The position numbers and the translations under genes were made by a program. Shown in pieces: positions 8,949-64,000 of a DNA stretch of 64,000 nucleotides. Every line of letters starts with the position of its first letter. The stretch's first letter is position 1. The DNA is from Strigops habroptila (lineage: Eukaryota > Chordata > Aves > Psittaciformes > Psittacidae): contig NC_044302.2 of assembly GCF_004027225.2 (NCBI RefSeq), positions 72,226,993 through 72,290,992 of the forward strand, given 5' to 3'. The notes under the pieces are model-generated. The model saw only the letters and a program-made list of their open reading frames with translations. It searched no databases and was not told the DNA's origin.

Positions 8949-9191
8949 CTTGTATAATCCAATGCCAGGATCAATGAGAAATGAGCGAGATGATGTAGAT
9001 GGCTGACTGGGTGATCCACTATTTGTTTTTTTGACTTTATTCTTGCAGTTGGAAACAGCACAGGGATTGACGTCTCCATCCTGATCTGACACAGAAGCTG
9101 TGGTAGGAGCTTCAGATTCAGAACGTATCAAAAGCTGAACTATGTCATTTAGTCCAACATTGTAGTCAAACAAAGTGTGTCCATCTTCTAG
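8949..9191 (-). CDS. UHRF2: UHRF2 coding exon 2 (end of UBL domain and linker)
   Basis: The exon encodes 81 residues. It begins LEDGHTLFDYNVGLNDIVQL, completing the ubiquitin-like fold, and continues through a Ser/Thr/Lys-rich linker (KVKKTNSGSPSQPSTSS) to LIDPGIGLYK, the lead-in to the tandem Tudor domain. The acceptor is a good tract (cttttggcag) and the donor is AAG followed by gtatgt. Both boundaries are phase 0, matching exons 1 and 3 exactly. The QPSTS and LIDPG blocks are typical of UHRF2 rather than UHRF1. The linker carries two cysteines (PCAVSNC) whose conservation I cannot judge. Confidence 0.95.
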
Positions 9192-14649: not shown

Positions 14650-17600
14650 TTTCACAGGGAAGTCTGCTGCCTCCCTGGGGCCAGGGTAAGGGACTTGACC
14701 AGAAAACTCACTCATCTCATACAGCCTGGCAACCACTATCCTTTATTAGTCTTCCAGGTGGGCAATGAGGAAATCTCTTCAAGAAGCCTGAGGGGACTCA
14801 AAGACTTCAGGGCCTTCGGGTGACTGGTTCAGGACCCCAAATAGTTTTCTCTTATCTCCTGACAGTCGCAGTCAATGACAATGGCTGTATCAGAAAAATC
14901 TAACTAATTCCTGGCTCCATGACTGGCGTCAGCGTCAAAATTTTCGGGTTTTGACCATGGGTCAGTCCATACAGCACCAGGCCTGCTGGTGGCAGATGAG
15001 GTACGCCTGTCCGAAAGTGGGAAAAGGATTCTAGCCCAGCAGCTAGCAGGGCTCATAGAGAGGGCTTTAAAGTAGGTTTGAAGGGGATAACACTAGGCTC
15101 ACTAGACATGAGCCACAGGATAACAGGCCACTGTTGGAGTCCAGATCCACAGGTCAACTTAAATGCATCTATGGCAATGCCCGCAGCATGGGCAGCAAAG
15201 AAGAGGAGTGGAAGCCATTGTGCAGCTGGGAGATCATGACATAATCACCATCACAGAAACGTGGTGGAACGATTCACATGACTGGAGTGCTGGAATGGAT
15301 GGCTACAGGCTCTTCAAGAGGGATAGGCAAGGAAAAAGAGGTGGTGGGGTTGTCTTATATGTCAGGGAGTGCATCAACTGCCTGGAACTTAATATTGTGA
15401 GTGAGAAGGCTGAATGCGTGTGAGTAAGATCAGGGGGGAGGCCAACCGAGCTGATATCCTGGTAGGAGTCTGTTACAGACCACGCAGCCAGGATGAAGCT
15501 ACAGATGAAGTGTTCTTCAAACAACTGCGACAAGTTTCAGCATCTCTTGCCCTTGTTCTCGTGGGGGACTTGAACCTACCAGATGTCTGCTGGAAGTACA
15601 ACACAGCAGAGAGGAAATAATCCAGGAGGTTCTTGGAGGTGTGGAAGATAACTTGCTAACCCAGCTGGTTAGTGAGCCAGCTAGAGGAGATGCTTGGCTA
15701 GATTTGTTGTCCGCAAACAGAGAAGGACTGGTGGGTGATGTGGTGGTCGGAGGCCATCCTGGGCAAACCAATCATGAAATGATTGAATTTTCAATCCTTG
15801 GAGAAGTCAGGAAGAAGGTCGGCAAAACCTCCACCTTAGACTTCCGGAGGGCTGACTCTGGCCTGTTTAGGATGCTGGTTGGCAGAATTCCTTGGGAGAC
15901 ATTACTGAAGGACAAAGCGAGCCAGGAAGGCCAGACACTCTTCAAGAATGAAATCCTTAAGGCGCAGGAGCAGGTGGTCCCCATGTGCTGGCAATCAAAC
16001 CAATGGGGAAGAAACCAGCCTGGCTGAACAGGGACATATTGCCGGAACTCAGGAGAAAAGAGAGAATTTACCACCTGTGGAAGAAGGGACCGTCACCCCA
16101 TGAAAAGTACACGGATGTTGTTATGTAGAGAGAAAGCTAGAAAGGCGAAGGCACAGATTGAACTAAATCTGGCCACTGCCATAAAAGATAATAAAAAGCA
16201 CTTTTACAAATATATTAGGAATAAAAGGAGGGCCAAGGAGAATCTCCATCTTCTACCGGATACTAGGGGAAACCCAGTGACAGAGGATGAGAAAGTTGGG
16301 GCTGTTCAGCCTGGAGAAGAGAAGGCTGCGTGAAGACCTCACAGCAGCCTTCCAACATCTGAAGGGGGCCTATAAGGATGCTGAAGAGGGACTCTTCATT
16401 AGGGACTGTAGTGGTAGGACAAAGGGTAATGGCTTCAAACTGAAACAGAGGAAGTTCAGGTTACATATAAGGAAGAAGTTCTTTACTGTGAGTGTGGTGA
16501 GGCACTGGAATGGGTTGCCCGAGGAAGTTGTGAATGCTCCATCCCTGGCGGTGTTCAAGGCCAGGCTGGACAGAGCCTGGAGCGACACAGTTTAGTGCAA
16601 GGTGTCCCTGCCCATGGCAGGGGGGTTGGAGCTAGATGATCTTAAATGTCCTTTCCAACCCTAACTATTCTATGATGAGGAAAAGGCTGAGGTACTTAAT
16701 TCTGCCTTTGCCTCAGTTTAACAGTCACGCCAGCCATCCTCAGGGTACGCAGTTCCCAAAGTTGGATGGCAGATGGGCAGCTGACTGAAGTCCCCACAAT
16801 TCAAGAAGAAATGGGTAGTGACCTCCTGCTCCACTTCAACATACACAAGCCTATGGGGCCAGATGGGTTACATGCAAGAGTGCTGAAGGAGCTGGCAGAG
16901 GAGCTCGCTAAGCCATTCTCCATCATCTATCAGCAGTCCTGGCCTAGCGGGCAGGTCCCGGAGGATGGGAGGTTGGCCAGTGTGATGCCTCTCTACAAAA
17001 CGGGCAGGAAGGAAGACCCTGGGAACTACAGGCCTGTCAGCATGACCTCAGTGCAAGGGAGGGTCATGGAGCAGATGATCCAAAGATCACAAAGCACATG
17101 CGGGAAAACTGAGGGATCAGGCCCAGTAAGCATGGGCTCATGAAGGGCACGTCCTGCTTGAACAACCTGATCTTCTACAATAAGGTGACTCGCATGGTTG
17201 ATGAGGGAAAGGCTGTGGACATTCTGTATTTGGATTTAAATAAAGCATTTTGCACTGTCTCCAGCAGCATCCAACTGGAAAAACTGGCTGCTCATGGCCT
17301 GGATAGGTGGATTCTTCACTGGGTTGGAAAGTGGCTGGATGGCTGAGCCCGAAGAGTGGCGGTAAACGGCATCACATCTAGTTGGTGACCAGTTAGTAGT
17401 GGTGTCCCTCAGGGCTCAGTGTTTGGGCCAGTGTTAGTATCTTCATTGATGATCTGGACGAGGGGATTGACTGCACCCTCAGTACACTTGCAGATGACAC
17501 CAAGCTGGATGGGAGTGTTCATCTGCTGAAGGCAGGAAAGCTCTGCAAAGGGATCTGGACAGGCTGGATCAATGGGCTGTGGCCAATGGTATGAGGTTCA

Positions 17601-26159: not shown

Positions 26160-28010
26160 AACCCGCTCGGATCAGAACTCGCCTGTCCCGGGGGGCGGCG
26201 GGGAGCGGGCGCGCAGGGGAACTGCGCCCCCCTCACCGCGATGCTCCGCGCCAAGCGCCGCCGGGACGCGCGGCTCTGCCCGTGCCAACGGGCCGCTGTG
26301 ATCCCGCCCCGCAGGGAGGTGGGAGGGGCTTGCAGCCGGCGGGCCCAAAAACCGTTACTCGGCCGCGGCACTGGGGGGACACCGCGCTCGCACCGCCCCG
26401 CCACGTGTGGCCCCGCGGGTGGGGGGACACGTTCCGCCGTGGAAACCGGCCACGGTACCGGCCGAGGTAGCGGCACGGCGGGCAAAGGCAAACGGACGAA
26501 ACGCTCCGCTCCTGGGGTCTAGCGGGGGTGGCGAGGAGGGCGGAGGGGTCTCGCAGACCCTCAGGGGCCGCCCTGTCATTTCGGTAGGATAAAAGCAGGG
26601 GCTAGGGGAGGAGCCTCCCGCGGTTCAGGTGGGAAAACAAACACACAAAGGGACCTCTCCGGCACCCGCTCGCCCTCGGGGAGAAAGGCGGGCAGGAGGG
26701 CGCGGGCAAACCCGCGCCGGGAGCCGAAGCCCCTCGTTAGGCTAGACACCCCGGCTGCCTCCTGCCCCGCACCCTACGGGACGGGGGTAAACAAAAGCCG
26801 GCGGACAATACATGGGTGGGGATACGGACCTCCGCGCCGGCGACACAAAGAGCCGAGCCCGAGAGGGGACGCGCCGGGCGAGAGACGGGGTAAGCCCCCG
26901 CCCGTCCCCACCCCTGCCGCCCAGGTAGGGGCGTTTCCGCCTCACCTGCTTGCCCCGGTAGAAAAGGCGCTGGCGGTCGGGGCTCACGCGGAAGGTCTCC
27001 TGGATCTTCTCCCGCAGGCACTCGATCTTAGTAAGGCGACTCAGGTCGTCGATGGTTTGGGTCTCGGTGCCGTCTATCGTGCGGACCTGGATCCACATGG
27101 TGCGCGCCCTCCCACTCGCTCAGCCCGCCGCGCAGAATGGGGGGGGAAGAGCTGGGGTAAGAGCTGGAAGAGGGGTCCGCTCCCCGGGAGCGCGTCTGCG
27201 GCGTGCGGCGGAGAAGGGGAGGGGGCCGGGCACTTCCCCCGCTCTTTGTTCGGCTCAGTGGGGCAGGATTTTCAAATCCCGCGGAACAGACACGAGCCTC
27301 CCCCCCACCCCCCCGCCCGCCGGGCCGCTGTCCCCACTCGGAGAGACGCGCAAGAGGGAAGGAGATCCGGGCCGACCCCCCTGCCGCTCCCCGATCGCCC
27401 GCGCCGCGAGCCCCCCGAAGCAGCACAAGGCGAGGCGGAGCCTGGCCGGAACGGCCGCGGCCAGGTCTAACGGGCGCCGCCGGGAGCCATCTCCCGACCC
27501 CGGGGAGTGTTTACCAGGCGCCGCCGCTCTCACATGGAGGTCACGGCGCCAACGCTGATCTCGCGAGAGCGCCCGGCCGCGGCCGCGAAGACACCACACC
27601 ACCGGGCGGGGGCGGGGCAGCGGGAGCGAGGCGCGCGGGCGGTGCCACGTCCGCTCCCGCTGCTTTCGGCACCGCGCGCGGCCCCGCCCTCCCCCCGCCC
27701 CCCCAGCGGTGCCCGGCCGGCGGCTGGCGCGGGGCCCGCGCGGGGAGCGTTTGGCGCGCGCGGGGGAAGCGGCCGTTGGGGTCTCCATGGCGGCCGGCGG
27801 GACAGGGCCGTGCACACACAGAGCCGGGAGCCGTGCCCGGCAGCGCAGCGGCCCCAGCACTTCTGGAGGCAGCCAGCCTCAGCCTCAGCCCTGCCCGTTA
27901 CATTCCACTGCGGGAAACGTGGGACAAGGGAGGAAAAGGCGAGCCGCGTTTACCCTGCAAATCTGACTGCGGGCTTCACTTTGTGTTTTCCAAAACTGGG
28001 TAATCCTGCA
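26160..28010 (-). promoter_or_regulatory. CpG island and presumed UHRF2 promoter
   Basis: About 1.85 kb is strongly GC-rich with very frequent CpG, in a window that is otherwise AT-rich and CpG-poor. It surrounds UHRF2 coding exon 1, so transcription probably starts a few hundred bases upstream of the ATG, somewhere between about 27,100 and 27,700. A GC-box-like cluster (gggcgggggcggggc) lies near 27,604-27,619. No TATA box is evident, as expected for a housekeeping CpG-island promoter. Long open frames on both strands here (up to 266 codons) are Arg/Pro/Ala/Gly-rich products of composition and are not called as genes. Confidence 0.85.
26946..27098 (-). CDS. UHRF2: UHRF2 coding exon 1 (start of ubiquitin-like domain)
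   Basis: The minus strand encodes 51 residues beginning [10 protein letters not shown] and ending RLFYRGKQ, the conserved start of UHRF-family proteins. UHRF2 is a nuclear E3 ubiquitin ligase that reads histone H3K9 methylation and modified cytosine; this exon begins its N-terminal ubiquitin-like (UBL) domain. The ATG at 27,098-27,096 has an A at -3 (gcacc before ATG), and the exon ends in CAG followed by a consensus donor (gtgagg) after a complete codon (phase 0). The exon lies inside a strong CpG island. Several residues (SRLTK, KIQE) look more like the paralogue UHRF1, but exons 2 and 3 are clearly UHRF2. Reading through the donor gives only low-complexity GC-rich sequence, which supports the splice site. 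Confidence 0.96.
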
Positions 28011-28904: not shown

Positions 28905-29190
28905 ACTGTTTGCATCGTACGTGCAGCTACTGCCTCACGCAGCGCGCACGCTCGCAGTCACCTAGCGGGAGCAGCGGCAGAGAGGCCAACCCCCAGCAGT
29001 TCGCTCACACACACACAAAGTCCATCCTGTCAGCGAGTGCGGTTACAAACACTGCCCTGTAGTCTGCCCTCCTATAGCAGCCGCTGCTTTCTTGGGTGTG
29101 GTGTGGATTACCATGACCCATTGTGGGTGCCAGTCTGTGCTGGAGGCCTTGGGCAGGTTCAGCAGCTCCTCGGTACCCTGAGCTTACCTG
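28905..29190 (+). repeat. Dispersed repeat, copy A (inverted relative to copies B and C)
   Basis: Bases 29,006-29,190 are nearly identical to the reverse complement of 53,862-54,046; I see only two differences in 185 bases, both CG/CA-type. The adjoining 28,905-29,000 resembles the reverse complement of 59,402-59,491 (gtacgtgcag, tactgcctca, gcagagaggccaac). The family is not one I can name; an LTR or other non-coding transposon is likely. Confidence 0.8.
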
Positions 29191-32100
29191 GTTTTGATCC
29201 AAGACCACAATGAGTTCTTGGGAGGCTTTCGGATGTTATCTCCAGCATTTTTCCTCTTTTTGTCCTGCTGCTGTCAGGTAACTATTTCTCCATCCACACA
29301 CAGGCACCTACAGAGCCCACTTAGACAAACACAGCTTTCACGACACAGTATGGTGGCAAAGATTCCTGTATTTTAGTTTCAGTTGTGAGAATTCCCACTG
29401 CAGTTTTGAGAGAATTACTTAAGGCTTGATTTTAGGGTACTAAGCATGTCAAAGGCAGCTGAACAAAAAGTTTCTTAATTATTCTACAGATCTGTTCCTT
29501 TCTTCTTCATCCGTGCTAAGCTCTCTCTCTCTGCTCTTGTGATAACTGACTTTACTGCCGCTGCCACAGCATGTCATCAAATTGCTATTTATGCACATTC
29601 AAAGTTCTGGTTTTCAGTTTGTTGGTGGTGGTAACACAGTCTCAGACTCAAAGGCTGTAGTACACATGACATTTTGCAGTCTTTTGGCTCCAGCCTTCTT
29701 GGGTTCACCAAAACATTCACTGAAACGTTCAATGATTATTTAACACAGAGGAGTACAGTAAAAATACAGTGGTTTAATAGTTCTAGCTGGGGGGGGGAAG
29801 ATAAATCTGTCTGCAGCTTTATCTTAGTTACACTCCACCCCTTACAGTAAAAGGAACAGTCTCATTATAATCCCATTTGCAGAATCCAGCCTTTCTCTTG
29901 AAGCAAGCAGTAAAATGTGTCGTTCTTTTGCAATGGGGAAAAAAAGATCTGAAAGAATTCTGAAGTGGGATATTTTTTATCACATTTGGGAGAGTAGCAT
30001 CAGTTTGTGCTAGGGAGACTGGATGGGAATTGCAGGATGGACTTCCTTGAACAGAAGACACTTCTTGTTATGGAGAAAGAAAATGAAAGAGGGTCAGTTT
30101 GTTGCAACACTGTTACTGGAAATACATTGTCTAGTTGGGATTGTGCAGAAAAGCATATCACGTTGCTGACACAGGAGTTAGTGGTTAAAAGGAGGACTTT
30201 GCTATGGAGTGATCATAGGTGGCCTCTTTCATAATGTGCAGTATGGACCAGAGACTAGAATATAAAGCAAAAAAATAGTGAAGAAAAAAGTGTGTAAAAG
30301 TGGTCGACTGGGAGTTTGAAAGGGCATGTGAAAAGAGGCAGTTATTGAGGTAAGAGGAAAAGAAAGCTGGTTATTTAGAAAGCAATAATATCCTCTACTG
30401 GTCATGGTTATGCTGATGAGAAAATTAGGTAATACTGAAGGAGAAACTGACTGAGCAGCATAGTATGCATGTTGGAGTGTGGCAAAGGTAGCAGACGAAT
30501 TAGCAGATGAATTACTAGAATGAGCGGAACAGAGGAGAGGAGTCAAGAATAGAAAAGTAAAACGTGAGAGCAGTGAGGAAAGTACAAATATCTAATTGGA
30601 AACAAAACCAGAAATTAGTGACAAAAAAGCATAAAAGTGCATAGAAAAGGAAAATTGGAAATGAGATTTTAGAAGGTAAGACAATGCTAGTTTTCTTAGA
30701 GGAAAACTACAGGACAAGAATGAGAAATTAAATGAAAATGAAATAAACTGAGAATGACGTAAGAGTAAGCACAAGTTTGATTTGAAGTTGAGGGGTTTTT
30801 TTTAATGATGAAATGTTCTAAAGCAAACCATGATGCAAATTGGGGTTTTTGTGAGATAAAATAGTCAAAGGTTTAAAATTGTGGGGTGAAGTATGGGAGC
30901 TAGTTGGCATGTGTAGGCATTTTCATATTTTTGCATGGGTAGGTTGCTTTAGCATGTAAATAAAGATAATTACTTGCTTGAGATTATATTTTTTCTGGTA
31001 TTTGAAATTCTGTGTGAATTGTTAAGAGTTCTGGAGATTTGCCTAACATATTTTATGCTTTATCAGTAGGAGTATGGCCTTAATGTGGATAAAGTCACAG
31101 GGATAGAGAGAAGCAGCGACATATGAGCTTGATGAAGAGACAAATGTGCAGGAGGGGATGGAATAATGGAAGAGTAATGCAAAGCGAAGGAAACAAGAAA
31201 GAAGCCAGCAGAAGAGGGAAAGTTGTGTGACTGAATTTCAAGGAGGAGCTGTGCAAGAGAAGCAGCAAGCCAAGAAGGAAAAGACAGGAAATCTTTTTGC
31301 AGGCTTATTTTTCCAGTGAGCTTTACACCAGAAGTCTTTTAATGACTTGTAGGCAATGAAATAACCCACATGGATGCTTTGATACTGTTGTGCTCAGATG
31401 TGCTGATGTGCCTTCCAGGGAAAAGGAAGAGAAGAAGGAAATTGAAATTGTCCATGAACGGAGCTTGGTAGAAATGTGTCACTTAACTCCCATGAAGTCA
31501 ATGTGACTATTCCAGCGTAAACATGTTGGGAGAGGAAACCAGCTGTCTGACTTAATTAACCTTATTTAAACTTGATGAGCAAAAGCAAAGGCAGTATAGT
31601 GGTTGCAGATAATGCAGCAAGCATGCATAAAAATGGTATCCTATACACAGAGCTGACTGTTCGTCCAATCGTGTAGGGGGAGTTACAAACAGCAGCAAAG
31701 TTGTGACAGTAGGAGGTCACAACAAATTTTTATTTGACTGTGAAAGGAACAGAACCGCTAACAACTCTGCCTTATTAAATTTATATGTAGCAACATTTCT
31801 TCTGCCCGAGGGGTTGAGACATTAGAAAGTGTGCGTTCTGTGCAGCTGAGTAAGAGTTCAGGGCAAGACAGCAGTGAGTGTTTTGCCCTAACAAGTGTCT
31901 AATTTTGTTTACAGTGAGAAAAGTCCCTGTCCTGAGGACCATACGGCTTGGGGCAGATGCTGTCTGTCTCTTTAATACATTGTACCTATTCATGGAGTGA
32001 TATACTTTAAGCTCAGTGAAGTGAGCCTTAATTTATGCTTTATGTAATATATATTTATGTAATTTTATACAATTTCTACTGCAAAAAAGGTAAAAAGAAG

Positions 32101-34399: not shown

Positions 34400-34796
34400 G
34401 AATCATAAAATCATAGAATGGTTTGGCTAGAACGGAACTTTAAAGATCATTTAGTCCAACCCCACTGCAATGAGCAAGGACTAGACCAGGTCCCTCAGAG
34501 CCCCATCCAACCTGGCCTTGAACACTTCCAGCAATGGGGCAGCCACAGCTTCTCTGAGCAATTCATTACACAGTTTCACCACCCTCATTGTGAAAATTTT
34601 CTTCCTTATATCTAGTATAAATCTACCCTCTTTTAGTTTAAAACTATTCCCCCTTGTCCTATCACTTTAGGCCTTACTAAAAAGTCTGTCCCTATCTTTC
34701 TTATAGGCCCCGCTTCAGGTATTGAAAGACCACAATAAGGTCTCCCTGTAACCTTCTCCAGGCTTAGCAAGCCCAACTCTCTCAGCCTATCTTTAT
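34400..34796 (-). mobile_element. CR1 LINE 3' fragment
   Basis: From the 3' end, catagaatggtttggctaga runs leftward into CR1 blocks such as ccatccaacctggccttgaa, cccttgtcctatcac and ccttctccaggctta. It is 5'-truncated and moderately diverged. Confidence 0.93.
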
Positions 34797-36394
34797 AGCC
34801 TTATAATTTTATCAAGTAGCTTTTAGTGGCAATAGAGTTTGTCTTTTTAGAAATATTTCTATTCCTGACTATCCATCAGAGAAGTGATTCATAAACTATG
34901 TACAAACCAAACCAGTGCAAGGCATTTCTAAATGGTTCGCATTTGGTCCTCATTACATAGAAAATGCAGAACATTCTTGTCCTTTGTGGCTATCCCAGGG
35001 GCCTATGAGAAAGTTGGAGGGCTTTCTCACGCCAGTAGTTTGCTGCAGACACTGAACGGAACAAAACTTTCTGGTTAAACCTCACAGCAAGGCAATACCT
35101 AGCACTTCCGGAGTTTAATGTAGACCTCTGAGTGAAGCATTTAAGCTAACAATTTCATGTGCTAAAATTAGATGCCCAAGAAGGACGTCCAAAGCAGGCA
35201 GCATGATGAGTAGGGAGCTATTTAAATTCAGTATGGACAGTGTGTATCTGTCTAGATTTAGAAGGACAGAAACAATACGGGAAATCTTAAATTCTGTTTT
35301 GCAGATAATAGAAACAGCTCAAAGCGCTAATTCTGGATTCCCACTTAGTTACTGGAACTGACTTTTATAAACAAGAATTTATTTAATTTATTTCAAAGAT
35401 ATGGTCAAAGTTCACTTTTTTAACAAAAATATCAAGTATACATTAGAATGGCAAGGGATACTGTTGTTACAATTCCATTCTTTTAAGGCATCTTTTGCAA
35501 GATGAAATTATGTCTGTATACATGTGTAGGTACTCTTTTAATCAATTTGTTGTACCCAAGCTTTAGACCAGTTTGAGTCTCCCTCACGTAGTTGCACAAA
35601 TTATGCTGTTGTGAGCCAAAGAACATACCTTATATGCAAAGCCAAGAATCTATTGTTAGTCTAAGTAAAATATTAGTAGTTCAAGAAATTATTAATAAAA
35701 ATTAATGTTGTCCATTTGAATGTCTCTCACCACTCCTAGTTCAGACTACATACAGGTAAAACTGATACAAGCAATCTTTCTAGTATCTACCCCTTTCTTT
35801 GCTTGGATGCCAACCTTTCCGCTGACCATCTGAGTATGAAACATCAGTGGCTTCAGTTCAGGGGCTGCATCTTGAGTCCATCACTGAGAGGATCATGATA
35901 GTGATGGCGGGGTTTCTTCCTCCTCCTTGCTCACAGGAGTAAAATATTGCTGCTGATGATTTCTTTCTCCTCACTTAGGATCTGTTTGGAATACTTTCTA
36001 TAGGTTTATTAACATTTTATACATTACTGTTCATCAGATTTCAATTCCGGGGTACATCAAAACTTACTATAAGATGTGGTTTACATATGTCAGATACCTG
36101 TTCTTTATTCTGTTACCACTAAGATGGGTTTTACCCAGCTCCCAAGACTGCACTGATTTAATGACCAATAACAGATCAGTGAGTTGCTTATAGCCTGAGG
36201 ACCCCACTGTCATTCTGTACCTAGGCGTCTACTGTCATCTGATTTCTCTAGCCCTCAGTGCTGTGTTTTATTATGGTATCCCTTACTTCCTGTTGCAATC
36301 TGTTAGTTCCAAAAGGCAACAATCTGTTACGGTAGGCTACACTTGAGTGTGACAGCAGGCATTGGAGCACATGGCAGTGCAATGCTAAGCAAAA

Positions 36395-37450: not shown

Positions 37451-38656
37451 AGCATAATACTATGCCCACCATGACAGACCAATTAAAAAAAAAAAAAACC
37501 AACCAAAACCCTGTGAGAGAAAATAAAGCACCCCGTTTTGTTGACTAATGGTTATTCTGATGAGTGCTTGCACACAAGGTCTCTGTACTTTGATCCCCTG
37601 TCTGATTGTAAACAAATATATGAAACTTTTACGGACGTATGTGTTGTTATTTACATAATTGGTATTTGTAGCTAGAGCCACAACAGACCTGGCACTACAC
37701 AAACATAGATGAATAGGTGTAGTGTAGTTCAACAGACCTTACACTACTTAAAAATGTCTTAGCTACAAGCTAAGTTACAAGCACAAGCATTGTATCACCC
37801 TCCTACAGTAAGATAGGTATTAAAGCCTTTTAGTAGAACAAGCACATTATTCCAGACAGGGAGGACACTGTGTACCTGCATTCTTGGTCCCTTACCTTGC
37901 ATCCTATTTTTGGACCTCTTCTGCTCTTGTTCTGCCTGTGAGCATCTGGAACTTAGTCCTGATTTATTCTACAGACTAACTCTTCCACATATTGTAAAGT
38001 AAAGGATTTTATTTAATATAAAAATCAAGTTTCACCACTGTTGCACCAGCTATTCCGTACATGCGTAGACGACGTAAAAACATTGCCTGAATTTGTGTTC
38101 AATATGCATTGGCACAACTCTAGGCAAGTAGACAAGATTTTGCCTATGTTTATGTTATAATAATGTAGATTTTCTGTTTCCATCTTCAATTATCTTACTT
38201 AATTCTATAAGTAATCTGCTCTGTTAAAGACAGAGCTATAAACTAGGTTTAGCTTAACTCTGTAGCTGAGCTGGCTATTCAGGGAGCTGTTCTCATTTCT
38301 TATGGAATCTGGCAGTTTGCAATAAATAGTTAGAAGTTTTCATTGACTAAAATCCCTGTCTAAGTACAGTAAGGTATCACTTCCTAAAGACAATGTTAGG
38401 CAGTTCTTCCAGATGGTTAATTGACCTGGTATAAGTGATGGTGATTTGGCTTTGCAGTGATGGCATTCTGAGCATTTGTATATCCAGAATGGTAGTAAAC
38501 TATCAGCCTTCTGTATACTGTGGCTGACATCCTTCATTTAAAAAAAAAAAAAAAAGTAAATTTTTTTATATCCCCATGGTGCACACACTTGCATGTTCAT
38601 TCCATTCAACATACACAGAGTGACACATTCAACACATCAGATAGTAACCATAAAGT

Positions 38657-52969: not shown

Positions 52970-53158
52970 TTATTTTTCCTGTAAATATGACACCCTGAAG
53001 TAAAAATTTTTGTCCTTATTGGGTTCTTTGTTTTCCAGCTTGCGAATATCAAGTGAGTCATCATTCACATACAGGTAGTAACTTGTGTCTTCATAGCACT
53101 GGAACTGCACTGAATCTCCTTGGTAATGCATGATGAAAAAGTGATTATCTTCACTCAG
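52970..53158 (-). CDS. IL33: Terminal coding exon of an interleukin-33-like gene
   Basis: The exon encodes 62 residues and a TAA stop. It starts after a strong acceptor (ttttattctttcctttgtgtattttcatag, positions 53,189-53,159) in phase 0 with LSEDNHFFIMHYQGDSVQFQ, continues CYEDTSYYLYVNDDSLDIRK and ends FYFRVSYLQEK. This fits the last third of an IL-1-family beta-trefoil. The closest match is human IL-33: FFVLH against FFIMH, VSFEC against VQFQC, and ENILFKLS against KNFYFRVS. The human final exon encodes 63 residues. The acidic-to-aromatic FQC-YED-YYLYV block sits where other IL-1 proteins have their family signature. Neighbour (UHRF2) and strand agree with the mammalian locus. IL-33 is a nuclear alarmin acting through ST2 (IL1RL1). 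Identification is by eye; another IL-1-family member is the main alternative. Confidence 0.85.
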   Translation of the reverse strand: MSEDNHFFIMHYQGDSVQFQCYEDTSYYLYVNDDSLDIRKLENKEPNKDKNFYFRVSYLQEK

Positions 53159-53861
53159 CTATGAAAATACACAAAGGAAAGAATAAAAGTTGTATTTTAA
53201 TAGGTTTCCATGTGACAAAAATTAATGTATGTTGCTGGCTTGTTTTATTTTGAAAATGCTTTTCTCCAGTAACACATATTTACTAATTTTTAGATAAATC
53301 TTTTGCAATACATAATCATTTTGGCACAGACTCTGTGATAACTATGAGTAAAATAATATCTGCCTCCCTCAAAGGACTGTGTATTTCCATATCCATTGCT
53401 GCATTCCTTTGCTTCATAAAAAGACCAGCAGTTTTCAACTGCAGCATACCTGTTATTTGGCTCATTTAGGATTTTCAGCTGGTTATTTTCTTACCACAAA
53501 CCTACCCTGTAAATTGTCACTAGCAACAAAATGTCAATCCACAGTTTTCTTGCTTCTGCTGGAGTGAAATTAGAATGTTTGGGTCTCAATTACTTTTAAA
53601 CAATTTTTCTTTTACCTATGATTTTTCTCTCCAGTTTCCAATACGCTTTTTTCCAGATGATACATTTTTGGAGGAATGACTATTGTCAAAACAGCCTCTC
53701 TGTGTGTGGGAATGTGTTTGGGCTCTCTAGCCACCTCCAAGTGAGGATGGAAAAACAGTTACCAGAAAACACTGTGCCAGAGTGTGGAAGAGTGTGTGCT
53801 GAGAGGTAGCCTCTGAAACCGCAACAGCTGGGGGCTAGCAGCCCTGTTAAATCTACAAGAA

Positions 53862-54190
53862 CAGGTAAGCTCAGGGTACTGAGGAGCTGCTGAACCTGCC
53901 CAAGGCCTCCAGCACAGACTGGCACCCACAATGGGTCATGGTAATCCACACCACACCCAAGAAAGCAGCGGCTGCTATAGGAGGGCAGACTACAGGGCAG
54001 TGTTTGTAACCGCACTCGCTGACAGGACGGACTTTGTGTGTGTGTGACCGTGTGCACAGCACCCTGGTGTGGGTACGACCTCCTGCACCTGAGTGTGCGC
54101 ACTGAGTGAGGGAGTAACTGGCAAGACTGCGTGAATAGTTACATGCTGCTAATAGTAAGAGCTCAATTAACAAACGATTAAGATTTATGT
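53862..54190 (-). repeat. Dispersed repeat, copy B
   Basis: Bases 53,862-54,046 match copy A (29,006-29,190) almost exactly in opposite orientation. The rest, up to about 54,190, shows weaker similarity to the flank of copy A. This copy lies in the last intron of the IL33-like gene and starts with caggtaagc, a splice-donor-like string on the plus strand. Confidence 0.8.
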
Positions 54191-56059
54191 TTCCCCCAAC
54201 TCAACCTCTTGTTGGGAGCAGGGAATTTATAATATCTTTTGCAGAAGACTGAGATGGTAAATGAATGCATCATAATCTAATTATTTTATCTTCCCTTTTG
54301 AGTGACCTAGTTGAACATTCTCATCCTACCCACAGGACAGTTCTACAAATCTGACCAGTCTGGTGTATTTCCATTGTGCACAATGCTGAAGGGGACCTCT
54401 AAAGTAAAACTGAATGCTTGGGGAAAAGGCTTCCAGCTGTGCTGGAGATTACAGCATTGGCAATAATTCACCCTTCCATAGAAGGAGTAATGTGTCCTTT
54501 CAGCCATTACGACAACAGGGGATGGAAAGAAAATGTCCTGCAGTTATTGTAGAGTACATAAAAGAAACTTGAGGATACACCTCCTGTATTAGCAAAGATA
54601 TAATAGGAAGCAGCTAAAACATTCTGTCCTGATCAAGTCAGTGTAACATCAGAGTATCTCCAGCTTCAATTCAGAAATTCTGTTTTAAAAAATACTATTA
54701 AGAAACTTGATGAAAATTTGTCTTTAGGAAAGAAATACCTATGAGGGACTCAAAAAGGTAATACAGACATACAAATGGAATAAAAGAATCTGGTGGCTTT
54801 AGAGAAAAAAAAAAAAAAAAAAGAAGAAAGATAACCTGCAGAAGCAAGGAGAGGGATTAACCTGTACAGAAATTCAACCTAGAGCAAGGGAGACTCCAAT
54901 GGGATCTGGTAAATATGAAGCCAAAATTAGCTGCCCGCAAAAGCAGATTGAGATGCAGAAATTAAAAATACCTGGTGTATTTTTCATCCTTTCATCTGCA
55001 TGAAAGGATGGAAAATTATACGGAAATTAAGAAGATGATTTGGAGAACGATATTGTGTGACTGGGAGGAGAAAGAGGAGCTGGGAGTAGAAGCATACCCA
55101 AACACTGGTAGGGCTGGGCGCTGTAGCACATGGTTAAGAACAGGTGTTTTGCAAGAAAACATGATACAAGTAATTTTCTATTATGGCCTGCTAAGAAGGT
55201 TGAGCAGAAACCCTGGACAATAGTTAGATAAACTATAGTTAGATAGTTGGTGGACTATAGTTAGATAAAGTTCATCCTGAAGACAGCTCCTATGGCAGCC
55301 TGAGAGATCATGCACCAGTTCCAAGAAAAAACCCCAACTGGTCTTCAGTTATAGATCTGACTATTTCTTTGCCATTGCACTAAATGAAGAACCAATTTGC
55401 ATTTAGGTTTCACATTTAGTGACAAAAAAATACACCATTGCTCATGTCCCACAGGCGATTGACAATTCACTTGCAATAACATATGTATGCTCATGTTAAA
55501 AAAATGCTGCAAATGTTGTCTTCACAGGCTAAGCAGAAAAACACTGTCTTATGGAATAATATGTCAGTGGTGGGAGCTGCGGAGAAAGATGTGAGAGAGC
55601 AGTTTCCAAGTTTTAAAATAAATAGACTCAAAATTATTTAAAATCCATTTGAAAAAGGCAAGATGAGCATAACCCCAGGCTAAATTAACTCTAAAGCAGC
55701 TAAAGATAAAAAGGAATGGATATGAAGGCCAGCTGAAACAGAACAAATCATCTTACATCACCATGGCACAAAGGAGTACAGGGCACACTACAATCTACAT
55801 TTTGCCTCAGATGAAACAAGGCAATGTGAAACAAGCACATGATCAAAAACTGCATGAGGCATAAAATAAGTGAACCAGCAAAACTGAGCTGCCATTCCAG
55901 TTGCACCAATGAAGCTACGGACCTTGGGAAATATTACAAAGTAATTATAAGGCACTTTGAATCTGTGATTAAAATGGGGTTGATGACACACCAGTGTTTT
56001 GGCTATTGCTGAGCAGTGCATGCACAGCATCAGGATCTTTATTTTCCACTCTGTCCCGA

Positions 56060-56437
56060 TGAGTAGGCTGGGGGTGGGCAAAAAAGCTGGGAGAGGACAC
56101 AGCTGGGACAGCCATCCTGGACTGGCCAAAGGGGTACTTCATGCCATGTGTCACGAGGAGCCATAAAGACTAGTGCAGAGGAAGAAGAGGGTGTGGATAT
56201 TTTTGCTTCTGAAGTGGCTTTTGCTCAGAGACTGGCTGAGCAATGATCTACTTATGGGATGAAGTAAGTACTTTGGCATCACTTGGGGTTTTTTTACCTT
56301 CACATATTACAGTCTTTATCTTGACTCAAAAGTTTCTTCACTTTCACTCTTGCTATTCTCTCCCCTGTCACACTGGTGGGGAGTGGGATTGAGTGAGTGG
56401 CTGTGCTGGGGCTTGGCTGCTGGATGCGGCCAACACA
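56060..56437 (+). mobile_element. 3' part of an avian endogenous retrovirus LTR
   Basis: The blocks agctgggagaggacacagct, ggactggccaaaggggtact, tttatcttgactcaaaag, tttcttcactttcactcttg and gtggggagtgggattgagtg match the middle and 3' portion of the LTR family whose 5' part is at 2,666. The 5' end is missing and no internal retroviral genes are present. Open frames of 87-103 codons across it are LTR sequence, not genes. Confidence 0.75.
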
Positions 56438-57044
56438 CCTCAGTGCTTTTCTTTCCACAGATGGTCCTATCCTGACAAGTGGCAGGGCTGTGGTTCCAGC
56501 CCTGGGGCAGTTGATTCCAGGCGTGCTGGATATCCTTCCACATGAAAGCAAACTGTGGCCCACACTCTGCTGCCGAAGGGATCAAGAAAAATGCTTCAGC
56601 AGTCTTAGCTGTAGCATACACTGCCACTTTTGACTCCCATTCATATTGGAGCTCTGGACATCTGATACAGCAGCACTCGGTGATGCTATGACTTTGTTCA
56701 GGCCAGAGTAGTTAACTTCCACACTCCATCAGATTTTCACACTGGCAATATGGAACTACTGAAGGGTGAGTGAACTTTGCTGACCATTCCTTCCATCTCC
56801 AATAGATGAACCAAAACTTTCTGAGCCAAAAAAAACCCCAAACCCTCAAGCCGCATGCTGGGTTGATCCTAGCCAGCAGCAGAGCACAGTAAGAATAGCA
56901 TTGTCATTTCTGACAAGGTCAGCAGTTCTGAACCAAAGTAATTCTGTGGACCTCACTTGCCAGATTTTGCCTGTTTGGAATTTCATTTTCTTTATTTTGA
57001 TCTATTTAACTGGAGTAAAGAGTAAGTCCCACAATAAGATACTG

Positions 57045-58150
57045 GAATCATTGAATGGTTTGGGTTGGAAGGGACCTTAAAGATCGTCTAGTTCCAGCCC
57101 CTCTGCCATGGGCAGGGGCACCTTCCACTAGACCAGGTTTCTCAAAGCCTCGTCCAACCTGGCGTTGAACACTGCCAGGGATGGAGTAGCCACAGCTTCT
57201 CTGGGCAACCTGCGCAACAGTGAAAAACTTCTTCATAATATCTACCCTCTTTCAGTTTGAAATCATTCCCGCTTGTCCTGTCACTACATGCTTTCACACA
57301 GAGTCCCTCTCCAGATTTCTCCTAGGTCCCCTTTAGGTATATGACCACTATAAGGTCTCTCCTGAGCCTTATCTTCTCCAGGCTGAACAAGCCTGACAGT
57401 CTCGGCCTGTCTCCATAGCAGAGGTGCTCCAGCCCTCTGATCATCTTTGTGGCCTCCTCTGGACTCACTCGAGCAGGTCCACGTCCCTCTTGTGTTGGGG
57501 GCCCCAGAGCTGGATGCAGTACTGCAGGTGGGGTCTCACAAGAGCAGAGCAGAGAGGCAGGATCACCTCCCTTGACCTGCTGGTTGCGCTCCTTTTGATG
57601 CAGCCCAGCATACGGTTGGTTTCCGGGCTGCAAGTGCACACTGCAGCCACGGTGTGGTCATGTTGAGCTTCTCATCTCATCTGCCCCGACCTCGGTGCAG
57701 GATCTTGCACTTGGTCTTGTTGAACTTCATGAGGTTTGTGCTGTCCCTCTGGATGGCATCCTTTCCCTCCAGTGTGCCGACTGCTCCACACAGCTTGGTG
57801 TCATCAGCAAAATTGCTGAGGGTGCATCAGTCCCACTGTCCATGTCATCAACAAAGATGTTGAACAGGATTAGCCTCAACACCGACCCCTGAGAGACACC
57901 ACTTGTCACCAGTCTCCACTAGGACACTGAGCCATTGGCTGCAATTCTTTGAGTGTGACCACCCAGCCAATTACTTATCCACCAAGTGGTCCATGTGTCA
58001 CATCCATATCTCTCTAGTTTAGAGACAGGATGTCATGCAGGACAGTGTCAAATGCTTTGCAAAAGTCCAGGTAGATGACTTCAATCACTTTTTCCTTATC
58101 CACCAATGCTGTCACCCTGCCGTATAAGGATCTTTCATGACTATATAGCT
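57045..58150 (-). mobile_element. CR1 LINE, 1.1-kb 3' segment
   Basis: Starting at the 3' end (tcattgaatggtttgggttg), the reverse orientation shows consecutive CR1 blocks: tgccatgggcaggggcacct, ccaggctgaacaagcctgac, gctggatgcagtactgcagg, and the ORF2 C-terminal region with atcagcaaaattgctgaggg and gtcaaatgctttgcaaaagt. It ends near 58,150. Frames are broken. Confidence 0.93.
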
Positions 58151-59401
58151 AACCTCTGACTTAATTTGTCTGTCTTGTTTAGCTTCATCTAACTATTCAG
58201 CAAACTAGAGAGGACCCTAGAATAAAAACTCTTAGAGCTCTGAATGGAGCTTTGAGAGTTGCAGCCTTTCAGAACTCAGTCCACCCGGGCTGGAGAATTC
58301 CAGTCAAAGTTTTGGGAAAATTACATCCAGTTATAATAACCTAATAACCCTGTGTTATCCACCAAGGAAGAACACAGAGAAAAGCAGCCAGATCTAGTGA
58401 TAGAATTCTTGACTTCAGTAATCTTTTCAGCAAATGTGTCAAGTTGAGAAGGAATTTAGGAGGGGTATCAACTGAGAAAGGAAAGAGGAAGGAAGATTTG
58501 AAACTGAGGGAAAACTGAGTGCTGCTACTACTTAACAATAGTAGCACCCTAGAGCTGTGAGGGTTAAGTATACATATACAAAGATCTGAGTGTGATTAGG
58601 TATCATGAACAGTAAAATACTATGGTTGGACCAGAACAGAAATACCTCTGAAGGGAGATAATACATATATGTACTGAAGTAGATGTGTATTTCTCTGATA
58701 ACCAATATATAATCACTAAACCCTCCACTTCTGGAACATAATTCATGAAAATGATAAAATAAAACATTAAAACCTATACCTATATATAACAACACAGCAT
58801 GTGATCAACTTTCCTTAGTAATTCCCTCGTCTACTATTTTCCCCCCTCTACTCCCTCCTCCTACAACCTGTTTAGCTGTCTGTGCCCCAAGGATACAGGC
58901 CCACCACTGCTACTACATGGCTGCACAATTTTGGTCCAGACTTCTAAGGAAACTGCTAATTTATGAGACAGCCTGAAAGAAGAAAGAAGGGCTGGCAACA
59001 GTACCAGTCTAGTTGAGAACTCCAGGTCAAATCAAGTCATTAATGCCAACAGTGAATACTAAGTAAAACTCCCTTCAGCATCATGTGCAGGCTACATGAA
59101 GTGACAATGTTTGTAAATGTAATCTTACATGTGCTTAAAGAAACTGCATTGGCTAGTGGGAGAATTATGCGTAAGGGATAGGAAACATCCCATCATTGGC
59201 AGCATGTTGTAGGGAGATAGTTGTGAAAACCTTTTCTTTTGTGGAACTAAAGGGAAATACTGTTCTGTATCTCTTAATTCATCCTGTTGTGTGGTTAGCT
59301 GCATTTGCTTATATGATACCACTAATTGTGATATGCATGCTCCCTTATAGAGTTAAAATAATTACCATTATAAGTAAATGTGAGCCTGCTCCTGAGTAAA
59401 C

Positions 59402-59491
59402 CACTGGGGTTGGCCTCTCTGCTGCTGCACCAGCTGGGTGACCACAGGTGTGTGCACTGCATGAGGCAGTAACTGCACGTACAATGCAAAC
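59402..59491 (-). repeat. Dispersed repeat, copy C (partial)
   Basis: In reverse complement this stretch reads gcagttactgcctcatgcag and gcagcagagaggccaacccc, closely paralleling 28,908-28,993 of copy A. It lacks the 185-bp block shared by copies A and B. Confidence 0.7.
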
Positions 59492-62400
59492 ACTTTTCCA
59501 TTCTTACCAGCATGGTGTTGCAATAGATACTGGTCGTGGTCTGTGTTACCTTCCTTAATGTTTGATCCCCTATCAGAATAAGATGTTATTATAAAATATC
59601 ATTTGCTGTTACAAGCTGTGATTATTTTATTACGTTAATAACAGCCTAATTACTAAAAGAAGTTTTAATAAATATTGATTGTGAACTCTGCCTCCATAAG
59701 CCTTGCTTACAGGAATAGAAACTTACAGCACTATATGCAACTCTTCCTGCTGGTGTAACAGCAGGCTCCACAGATTCTTGTGTTTCTGGTAATTCTGCTG
59801 GAAGCCTTCCAGTAAGAAGAAAATGCCTCTCTTTAAGACTTACCGTGAAAAGCTAGCAGACTAAATATCACATTGCAGCACCACATAGCTTTGTCATTGA
59901 CACGAGAAATATTTCTCCATCTCAGTCAATTATTCCCACACTTTGTCATCCTAAGGTCAATGGAGGCTTAATTCATCACACCAGAAATTATTAATAAAAA
60001 CCTCCAGAAGGTTTATTAAGAATGATTCAGACCTGATTATGATTTTGCCTCTTGGCCTAAGTGGATGTGGTTCAAGTGCAGGCTGCTGGTTTCTCCTCAC
60101 AAAAGTGAGTAATATTGTTTTCAATTCTACTTGAAGGTATCCGCAAGAGACCATGCTGAGTAGATCACTGTCTGTCTTGTCAGGTAATGAACAGGTTCTC
60201 AGAATCAATTTTTGATTTTAATTATCTGTTTAGAAACCCAGAGTGATAAATAGGTCTCTACAGGCAACTGTTACACATCTTCTTTCCAGCTGTCCCCCAA
60301 ACTTGCAGCCATCAAACACTAATTCTTTCCCTATGAACAGCTCCACAGAAAAACCATACATCTTTCTAAAAGGGTATGAAATACATTTTAGAAGAAAGTA
60401 GTATGACTGTGATTGTTTATATCATACAAGGAGGCAACTAGAAGTTGTCTTATAAATTTCCTAAACTGTGTTGCTTTCTCCTTGTATGTAGAGCCGAGGA
60501 ATGCAAGTACCTCAGCAGGAACTTAAACTGAACGACTGACATGGATTTTCTAGGCCCTGTAAGGAGGAGATTTTTTCATTAATCAATGAAAAAATATACA
60601 GCACTGTAGCTCATACATTGAAAGACCATTTCAGAACGACTTCAAAGAAGAAATTACAAGAAACTACAAGAAGTTTCAGATTACCAGAGTTCCTTTCTGA
60701 TCTAGGAGAAATTCCAGCAATGTTAGAAATACTAGGCTGGGAATTTTAGGTTTTCAGTGTTTCACAGTCGCTATTATGAAGTTCTGAAATCCATCTGATC
60801 CTAGGTAGCTTTAATGTTGCTCACTGAAATTGGAAAGACTGTCTTTTCAATCCCTTGAGTAGCAAATTCCCTGGACTACTATTATTAGATACATTTCCTT
60901 AGGTTTTCATTTCCTCCAGGTTATAATGTCTGTCTAAGGTATCTTATAGAACAAGTAAAGTACTTTTTCTATAAACTACTCATTGTGTTCACAATGTTTT
61001 ATCATTGGCTCTAGAAAAGAGCCAACAAAATCAAGCTTTGGTCACAAAAAAATGTTAAGAAACCACCTGGCTACCTGTTTTTCTATACACAGTGCATTAA
61101 TCCTGGTTTATAATCATCTGCTGATACAGAATTCAGTTGGAAAGTATTGCAGGAACTGCTTGCTTTTAATTTCCTATTTATATTAAATTATATATACTTT
61201 TTATGGTTTTATTACTTCTCAGTAGTTTTTGACAAATGGATTTGCTATTTCTTTAAAACATCATTGTTTTTGTAATCTGACCCTTCTAGACCTGCTAATA
61301 CACTCACCCAGATTTTCTACATCTCATCTAAGAATTTGTACCAGGTGAAAACTATTTCGTAGCTTCCTGTATTTTATATGAGCATAATACTACAAGAAAC
61401 ATATCTGTCTTTCATGTTTTAATTGAAAGTCAAATATTTTTCCTGTACATTAAAGGGTGTACTCATACATACATACATACAAGTCAAGTCAAAAGTACAG
61501 AAAATTTCTTATTCTCTTTTTTTTTTTTGAGGAAAATACCAAAGATCAGCTGAAGTAGGAAAGTAAACAATGTGTCACTTAATGAGTAACAACAGGATGC
61601 ATTTAGCTGCACCTCTTACAAAACTATATTTGCACACACACTCTCTCAGACACACATTTTTACATGTTTGATCATAATTAGATACCTGTTTGACGTCAGG
61701 ATCTTCATGGTTGCATGTTTTCATGTCACATCTTTCCACTGAATGATAATCTGGCTCTGAACAGGATGCTTTTAAGACCTGTGTTTACAACCACCCAGAT
61801 TGGTAATTTTGTCCTCATATTTAGCTCTTTTAATCCACTGAATATCATATTAATTATAAAGAACACTCTTTTTTAAAAAAATAAACTCCATTAACGATTA
61901 AATTCAAATTATCCAAGATTAACAAATGGTCAAGCTTTCAAAACTCATCCATGAATATATCTCTCTTTTACCATTTGCAATGGAAAATGGATTGGGTTGA
62001 AAGCAAATACCAAAGACATTACTTCAAACTGTTTAATGCCCAGATTCCATTTTGCAATGCAGCCAAGACTGAACCATGTTGTAATACCAAATACCAAAAC
62101 TTTATCACAGATAAGGAGACATCTTCCACACCAGAATTCCTGTTGAGATTAAGAAAATTATTTGTATTCTGCTGGGAAAAGAAAGGTCCATGATCTTTCA
62201 AAGTTTTTTACATATTTGGAGACACTAAATATGTCTGTCTTAATTTTGGGGTAAGAACTGCTCTTAATCAAGTAAAGAAACATATATAACCCAGTACTTT
62301 AAAATAGGTGATTGGGAAGTAAAATCCATTAGGGCTCAACTCTCAGTTCTTTCCCTGATTTGGCAGAACACCTTTCAAACAATTAATTTGTTAAAATGTA

Positions 62401-63298
62401 ATCTCTGAACTAAAAGAAATCCTTTTAAAGCGATTGCTCTTTCTAGGACAGAAAGGAAAATCCCAATGGGTTAGCAGGCTATAAATATAATTAATCTATC
62501 TTACAACATACATTTCCCAAGATCATTTCAGGAAGTACATTTTAGGGAAAGTCATCTATGAATTAAAAGCAAACGAAAAACATCAAAGACTTGATTTGAG
62601 GAAACATTTGGCAATTTATACCACCATACATGGCCAATGTTAGATGAAGGGTCATTCTTTATCTCAACATAACCTGTGTAAACAGAGCTTCTTAGACCTT
62701 TGCCCTGGTTTAGAGGGTAAATTCCAACATAGTGTCCTTGCTCAGGCAGATTTTAACAAAGGTTATAACCCTCCAATATGGAAAGCTATCCTTGCCTGCT
62801 CTTCCTACTATAAGCAAACTTTCACAAAACTGGAGAAAATGAGAATGCTCTGACAACATATGGTAAACATTTAGAACAGGATACCACATTCAGCTGTATT
62901 TTCTTTTAATCACATTCCTTATCTTGTAATTCAGGCTGATTGAGAGAAATATATTTCCCCTCTTAAACTTATCTCTTTCCAAGACAGCATTCCTGTTCCT
63001 TCCTCCACTTTTATTTCTTGCATGTTCTCTGGTTAAGAAGCCTCCTGTCCTTCCACAGACACTGGAACCAATATCCCTGGCTGTCATCTAGTGATAGTAG
63101 CCAGCTATTTAACCCAATAAAGTAGGTTATTGAAAAAATAGGATTTTTTTTCCCAGGAAGTATAGAGGGACTTCGTCAGAAGTTGTGAAATGTGGAAGGT
63201 GGTAAGTAAAGGAAAATTAATTTGAAAAGGTCTGTGGGGGAAATTGTCCTATAGTAAGAAAGAGCACCCATAAGTTGCAAAGGAAATAAACTTCTTAC

Positions 63299-63449
63299 CT
63301 TCAGAGAGAGACGCTTCTTACCCTTGCACAATAGCACAAATTCATTAAGCTTTGATCTCTGAGTGAGGATCACCAAATTTTTAGAATCTGTTTTACATAG
63401 AGGAGAATATTGTAATAAAATATGTATCACTTCGTAAAATGAAGAAGAG
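63299..63449 (-). CDS. IL33: Penultimate coding exon of the interleukin-33-like gene
   Basis: The exon encodes SSSFYEVIHILLQYSPLC, then KTDSKNLVILTQRSKLNEF and VLLCKGKKRLSLK, and ends AAG before a near-perfect donor (gtaagaag). The phase-0 junction fits the exon at 53,158. The block NLVILTQ-x-FVLLCKGKKRLSLK follows the IL-1-family pattern just before the last exon (for example PVALGL-x-LYLSCVL-x-PTLQLE of IL-1 beta, MLMVTL-x-FWLHANN-x-SVELHK of IL-33), and the exon junction falls at the same place in those genes. The left boundary is less certain: I chose the acceptor ctctttacaaaatacttacag (phase 2), but the frame stays open to about 63,595 and a second acceptor-like site (tttacatgcttcacag) lies near 63,547. 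Confidence 0.75.
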
Positions 63450-64000
63450 CTGTAAGTATTTTGTAAAGAGACAACATTCAGGTTCAATTTGCATTGATGC
63501 ACATAGGACTGGTAACAAATATGATCACTCTTGATATCATTCTCTTCTGTGAAGCATGTAAAGTCTATGGATTTATGATGCTTTAAATTTGCCATATATA
63601 CACTTTATTTTTCTGTATTTATATTTAACTTACAGAATACCAGTTATATATTAATATATAATACGAACTACAAAGGCATATCTATTAGTACTTAATGCAT
63701 ACATGTAATATACATGCTTATGTAATATACCTGACTATGCATACTATGGAAAATGTAGAATTTTTTTCCTTTTATTCTCTTCATGCTTTCTAGGAAAAAA
63801 TCTTTCCACTTTCATAAATGTGGGTGTATTGGATTTACTTCCTTTTCAAATAACACTGTTTTTTTCAGCTGCAGGAAATCAGAGCATATGAATATTACAG
63901 GATACCCCTCAGCCTGATAAACTGACAATAGTCATTACCGTACAAAGGCTTCAGCAAAAAGTAGATAGGTCAATGTACCCTTTGTCAACTGACAGGGCAT
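63450..64000 (-). other. Upstream flank of the IL33-like penultimate exon
   Basis: Expected to be intron, with earlier IL33-like exons further right. The frame of the penultimate exon stays open up to about 63,595. Short exon-like intervals bounded by AG and GT occur at about 63,722-63,783 and 63,930-64,000, but none is convincing. Otherwise AT-rich sequence. Confidence 0.5.

Follow-up and report, generated by a model that had tools for sequence, protein, structure and literature searches.

A gene without a name in the kakapo, Strigops habroptila, is very probably the orthologue of mammalian IL33

We analysed a 64,000-nucleotide stretch of the kakapo (Strigops habroptila) genome (NCBI RefSeq assembly GCF_004027225.2, contig NC_044302.2, positions 72,226,993 to 72,290,992 of the forward strand; hereafter, the window), in which an initial annotation had reported two minus-strand exons of a probable avian interleukin-33 (IL-33) gene. 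Our analysis indicates that these exons very probably form the 3′ portion of the IL33 orthologue in kakapo, situated between UHRF2 and KIAA2026 and encoding a protein that would work in the manner of IL-33; the orthology itself appears close to certain. The gene is already in databases without a name. IL-33 acts as an alarm signal of the immune system and has been called mammal-only in several papers, yet clear relatives of the kakapo gene are found in birds, crocodilians and turtles.

Coordinates follow the window numbering, extended past 64000 into the same contig where exons 1–3 fall. The kakapo gene comprises five main coding exons and an optional 93-nucleotide cassette, all on the minus strand; of these, the window contains exon 4, the cassette and the last exon, while exons 1–3 are positioned past its right end. 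Splicing of 70017–69906, 67984–67862, 65810–65763, 63387–63299 and 53158–52970 reproduces, letter for letter, the 186-residue protein P0001 (NCBI 'uncharacterized protein LOC115600834 isoform X2 [Strigops habroptila]'), whose coding sequence is intact. The initial annotation could not tell whether the gene was already annotated; a gene model does exist, as LOC115600834. Inclusion of the cassette (61778–61686) together with a longer exon 3 (to 65739) gives a 225-residue form, which is also the length of two other parrot proteins, Neopsephotus P0057 and Ara P0059. The features of the gene in the window are as follows.

63299..63387, minus strand: IL33 coding exon 4 (DSKNLVILTQRSKLNEFVLLCKGKKRLSLK), 89 nucleotides, acceptor AAACAG|AT, intron phases 1 and 0; exact match to P0001; counterpart of mammalian exon 7.
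61686..61778, minus strand: optional in-frame cassette exon, 93 nucleotides, 31 residues, inserted where predicted strand 7 gives way to strand 8.
52970..53158, minus strand: IL33 last coding exon, 62 codons and TAA; exactly the annotated last exon and counterpart of mammalian exon 8.
63388..63449, minus strand: stretch initially counted as part of an exon; intronic in annotated P0001 and not in frame with the exons that precede it.
38420..38530, minus strand: kakapo counterpart of the alternative last exon of great tit isoform P0034 (54 % identity, E value 3.7e-8).

The two exons can be read as first described, with a phase 0 junction and a terminal TAA. The bounds 53158–52970 are exact; the other exon, given as 63449–63299, is real solely from 63387, its start having been placed 62 bases too early. 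An acceptor at 63450 was rejected, as following exons 1–3 (phase 1) it shifts the frame and runs into stops. Approximately 20 of the 112 residues in the peptide first proposed are thus intronic in the annotated model, and the cassette exon had not been noticed. The stretch 63388–63449, ahead of the exon 4 acceptor, is open and similar in three short-contig predictions (P0010, P0017 and P0027), resembling the longer exon of the initial annotation. The exon reminiscent of the great tit isoform lies ~14 kb past the normal last exon, and its use would drop strands 8–12, truncating the trefoil.

A search with the 112-residue peptide at a threshold of 1 drew on 54 candidates and returned 52 proteins with E values of 3.1e-6 or less; wherever a species was named, it was a bird. 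A profile built from 12 birds extended this to 153 proteins at E values up to 1, from 1726 candidates. The matches listed (the best 120 of the 153) include many birds, Gavialis, Crocodylus and eight named turtles, with no squamate, amphibian or fish named among them, and most are called 'uncharacterized' or 'hypothetical'. At least two bird entries in UniRef, from Limosa lapponica and Chloebia gouldiae, are named Interleukin-33. One turtle member of the family (P0127, Platysternon megacephalum) is named Calpain-13 in both NCBI and UniRef and looks misnamed. Within the kakapo genome, a search with the protein matched four places, all of them exons of this gene (exon 3 was unmatched); IL33 is present once in the genome. 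The uncharacterised status of the gene in NCBI and its strong divergence from mammals might be expected of a pseudogene or of open frames arising by chance, but chance is excluded by the relatives of the 112-residue peptide, which occur in many birds, and the exact match to an annotated protein with an intact frame and splice sites makes this explanation negligible.

Sequence searches were conducted against 177,635 distinct PDB sequences at E values up to 10. IL-33 chains accounted for all four matches to the 112-residue peptide (best E value 1.1e-4), all five matches to the bird profile (best E value 6.8e-4) and the first five of six matches to a wider sauropsid profile (best E value 2.9e-5), the sixth being an unrelated enzyme (E value 0.69). 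Below an E value of 0.3, the matches were exclusively IL-33 chains. Pfam family IL33_bt (PF15095) was detected at E values up to 1 in 24/24 sauropsid proteins of alignment A3 and 10/12 birds of alignment A2, with the Pfam IL1 family (PF00340) matching weakly in 2/24 proteins of A3. Among seven sauropsid proteins scanned against the curated IL33_bt cut-off of 27 bits, Gavialis P0119 (28.0), P0061 (27.3) and P0065 (27.4) exceeded it, and Ara P0059 (26.4), P0105 (26.5), P0131 (21.7) and the kakapo protein (17.2) fell below. Scanning of the whole genome with PF15095 gave no match at an E value of 0.001, a result that is uninformative as the control genomes likewise gave none (0/14). Other Pfam candidates (DUF5672, CBM77, ApeI-like, BTD and others) were dismissed as weak, below cut-off or chance matches; DUF5672 reached an E value of 1.9e-4 and 8/12 birds in A2, but just 2/24 proteins in A3.

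Profile alignment points the same way. Using hhalign, a 19-protein sauropsid profile aligned with a 22-protein mammalian IL-33 profile over 141 columns (E value 7.6e-7, probability 91.7 %, 23 % identity), and a 24-member sauropsid profile aligned with human IL-33 alone (E value 4e-5, probability 70 %). A tree of 29 proteins (19 sauropsid and 10 mammalian) split mammals from sauropsids with full support and grouped the turtles and the crocodiles each together; contrary to the species tree, birds stood on one side of a branch in 3 % of bootstraps. The dividing branches total more than five changes per column, and with change this fast and dividing branches this long, the tree is therefore not proof of orthology by itself.

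The locus is of the IL33 type. The same-strand neighbour downstream is a UHRF1/2-type gene, whose exons are found at ~27.1 and ~9.2 kb of the window and further left; upstream, on the opposite strand, lies KIAA2026 (KIAA2026_hel, 190 bits). Presumably the downstream neighbour is UHRF2, judging by the human sequence; the PDB matches alone slightly favour UHRF1. Human IL33 is located between KIAA2026/RANBP6 and UHRF2. The conserved region was noted on the chicken Z chromosome by Gibson and colleagues, who nevertheless inferred a breakpoint and the loss or relocation of IL-33 (PMC4090809).

Exon order and sizes in the cytokine domain also agree with those of mammalian IL-33 (IL33, IL-1F11; PF15095). 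The borders of the human IL33 exons were not found in the literature searched, and we deduced the mammalian exon borders from exon-skipping isoforms rather than genomic DNA: gaps in 120 mammalian proteins compared with P0134 fell at human residues 115–156 (16 proteins) and 72–113 (11 proteins) and, over a length of 17 residues, at a start of 157 or 158 (3 proteins), with other gaps in other mammalian proteins of that comparison. Kakapo exons 2, 3, 4 and last encode 41, 16 (or 24), 30 and 62 residues, against 42, 17, ~34 and ~63 residues for mammalian exons 5–8, the last two of these sizes being obtained by subtraction and from a statement in the initial annotation. The kakapo exon 2–3 junction (E|D) aligns to human K156|D157.

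Finally, the kakapo protein has a short, basic N-terminus (38 residues carry a net charge of +12) that starts with MLLRSG, matching the MXLRSG motif in the basic N-terminus of mammalian IL-33. This motif, in human residues 40–58, is described in a review as essential for binding of the H2A-H2B acidic pocket and chromatin (PMC8750818). Strict MXLRSG is found in 111/120 mammalian and 98/133 sauropsid proteins, many of the remaining sauropsid ones being fragments. Among sauropsid proteins of at least 170 residues that hold exon 2, 71/87 carry it; the other 16 are nine turtle or turtle-like rows with an LRS/LRP variant, two Rhea rows with MRLRSS and five that start elsewhere. Hence the PDB searches, profile alignment, locus, exon pattern and chromatin motif agree on a diverged bird IL33, as first proposed.

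An IL-1-superfamily cytokine of another kind, IL-18-like or IL-1-like, might instead have arrived at the IL33 locus. IL-18 and IL-1 beta share the superfamily trefoil fold, and in a comparison of fold alone, IL-33 tied with IL-18. However, no IL-18, IL-1 or other IL-1 family chain was returned up to an E value of 10 in the three PDB sequence searches, which instead gave IL-33, and the motif, exon pattern and neighbours are all of IL33 type; IL-18 and IL-1 beta have other loci and N-termini. We therefore regard such an arrival as very improbable. The structural predictions themselves are of low confidence: an AlphaFold model of the gharial relative shows 12 strands in a trefoil, and a Foldseek search with this model placed IL-33 at ranks 1–6. 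Prediction on the 12 birds was of little use (predicted local distance difference test score 33.2). The C-terminal domain is IL-33-like in sequence, with a 12-stranded trefoil tentatively predicted for the gharial relative.

Our assignment of the gene to IL33 runs counter to much of the published record. IL-33 was said to be confined to mammals by Rivers-Auty 2018 (PMC5861070) and by reviews from 2021 (PMC8750818) and 2022 (PMC9020223), a 2025 survey of more than 400 species restricted it to mammals (PMC12108812) and a 2021 study had it first appear in marsupials (PMC8226699). A 2015 paper mentions in passing a bird IL-33, which may be the product of the present gene. No dedicated study of bird or reptile IL-33 was found in the literature searched, outside which fell most subscription journals and all preprints. 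Late discovery has precedents among bird immune genes thought absent, namely TNF-alpha, IRF3 and IRF9 (PMC5913325 and PMC12220609). Chicken TNF is described there as highly GC-rich, unlike the kakapo IL33 region, where GC content is 34–45 % in the last 12 kb of the window; divergence, not GC, is therefore the likely reason that the gene was missed.

By homology with mammals, the N-terminus would anchor the protein at the H2A-H2B acidic patch within barrier-cell nuclei, damage would release the tethered protein, and the C-terminal domain would then bind ST2 (IL1RL1) with IL-1RAcP, leading to type 2 or regulatory responses. By this analogy, nuclear tethering of the kakapo protein is likely, and ST2 is its probable receptor, albeit with slightly less assurance. 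The retained chromatin motif, beside a trefoil strongly diverged from that of mammals, could also reflect a gene that descends from IL33 as its orthologue but no longer acts as a cytokine in birds and is kept as a nuclear protein only. This appears unlikely, as the trefoil region is well conserved across birds, crocodilians and turtles, and ST2 is kept and expressed in chickens according to two studies (PMC4090809, PMC12716188), the latter of which describes over-expression of IL1RL1 by chicken regulatory T cell clusters. A sauropsid IL33 orthologue with the chromatin motif gives chicken ST2 an obvious ligand candidate.

The kakapo protein nevertheless differs from mammalian IL-33 in several respects. 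Identity in the aligned domain is only ~21–23 %, and the bird protein begins at the residue matching human M45. A counterpart of human residues 72–113, the protease-cleaved block, was not found in the kakapo gene, and the DGVD caspase-3/7 site occurs in 0/133 sauropsid proteins versus 64/120 mammalian ones. By eye, C232 is the only one of the four redox cysteines of human IL-33 (PMC8750818) to be matched in the P0001 form. The cassette exon, which would enlarge a surface loop, brings three cysteines of its own in kakapo; cassette-like inserts occur in many proteins from birds, crocodiles and turtles and are absent from P0001 and from 22/22 aligned mammalian proteins. Such regulatory features vary among mammals too, and therefore bear on regulation rather than membership. 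Regulation probably differs from that in mammals, lacking the protease block and DGVD, with a cassette through which a surface loop can gain 31 residues.

It is conceivable, though we hold it only tentatively and think it rather doubtful, that IL-33 dates back at least to the common ancestor shared by mammals with turtles, crocodilians and birds. Tethering in the nucleus by way of MXLRSG would then be the earliest form of its control, with protease activation and caspase inactivation being mammalian additions, and sauropsids would instead control the cytokine by splicing a ~31-residue cassette into the strand 7–8 loop, producing two forms that differ in ST2 activity.

Ahead of MLLRSG, the kakapo 5′ leader at 70018–70056 encodes in frame SNSGYQDFSSAPA, which resembles coding residues of turtles (TGYQDFPVSPT) and galliforms (NSGYQSFSMNCK). 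The IL33 N-terminus may once have been longer in birds.

The remaining features of the region concern the neighbouring genes and repeats. Beyond KIAA2026 lie a major-facilitator gene and then a Peptidase_M28 gene, which we take to be ERMP1. The UHRF2 exons in the window are listed below.

26946..27098, minus strand: UHRF2 first coding exon (ubiquitin-like domain), ends placed by eye.
8970..9191, minus strand: UHRF2 second coding exon, ends approximate.

No tandem repeats were detected using Tandem Repeats Finder (TRF) at a score of 150, and two stretches searched for repeats of at least 40 bases contained none. A 195-base stretch occurs twice in inverted orientation with 97.4 % identity, at 29002–29196 (plus strand, upstream of UHRF2) and 53856–54050 (minus strand, in the last IL33 intron), and is probably a young dispersed repeat. 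A second dispersed repeat, presumably CR1-like, is present as four related copies that are 69–85 % identical (2182–2455, 16284–16676, 34409–34799 and 57042–57419).

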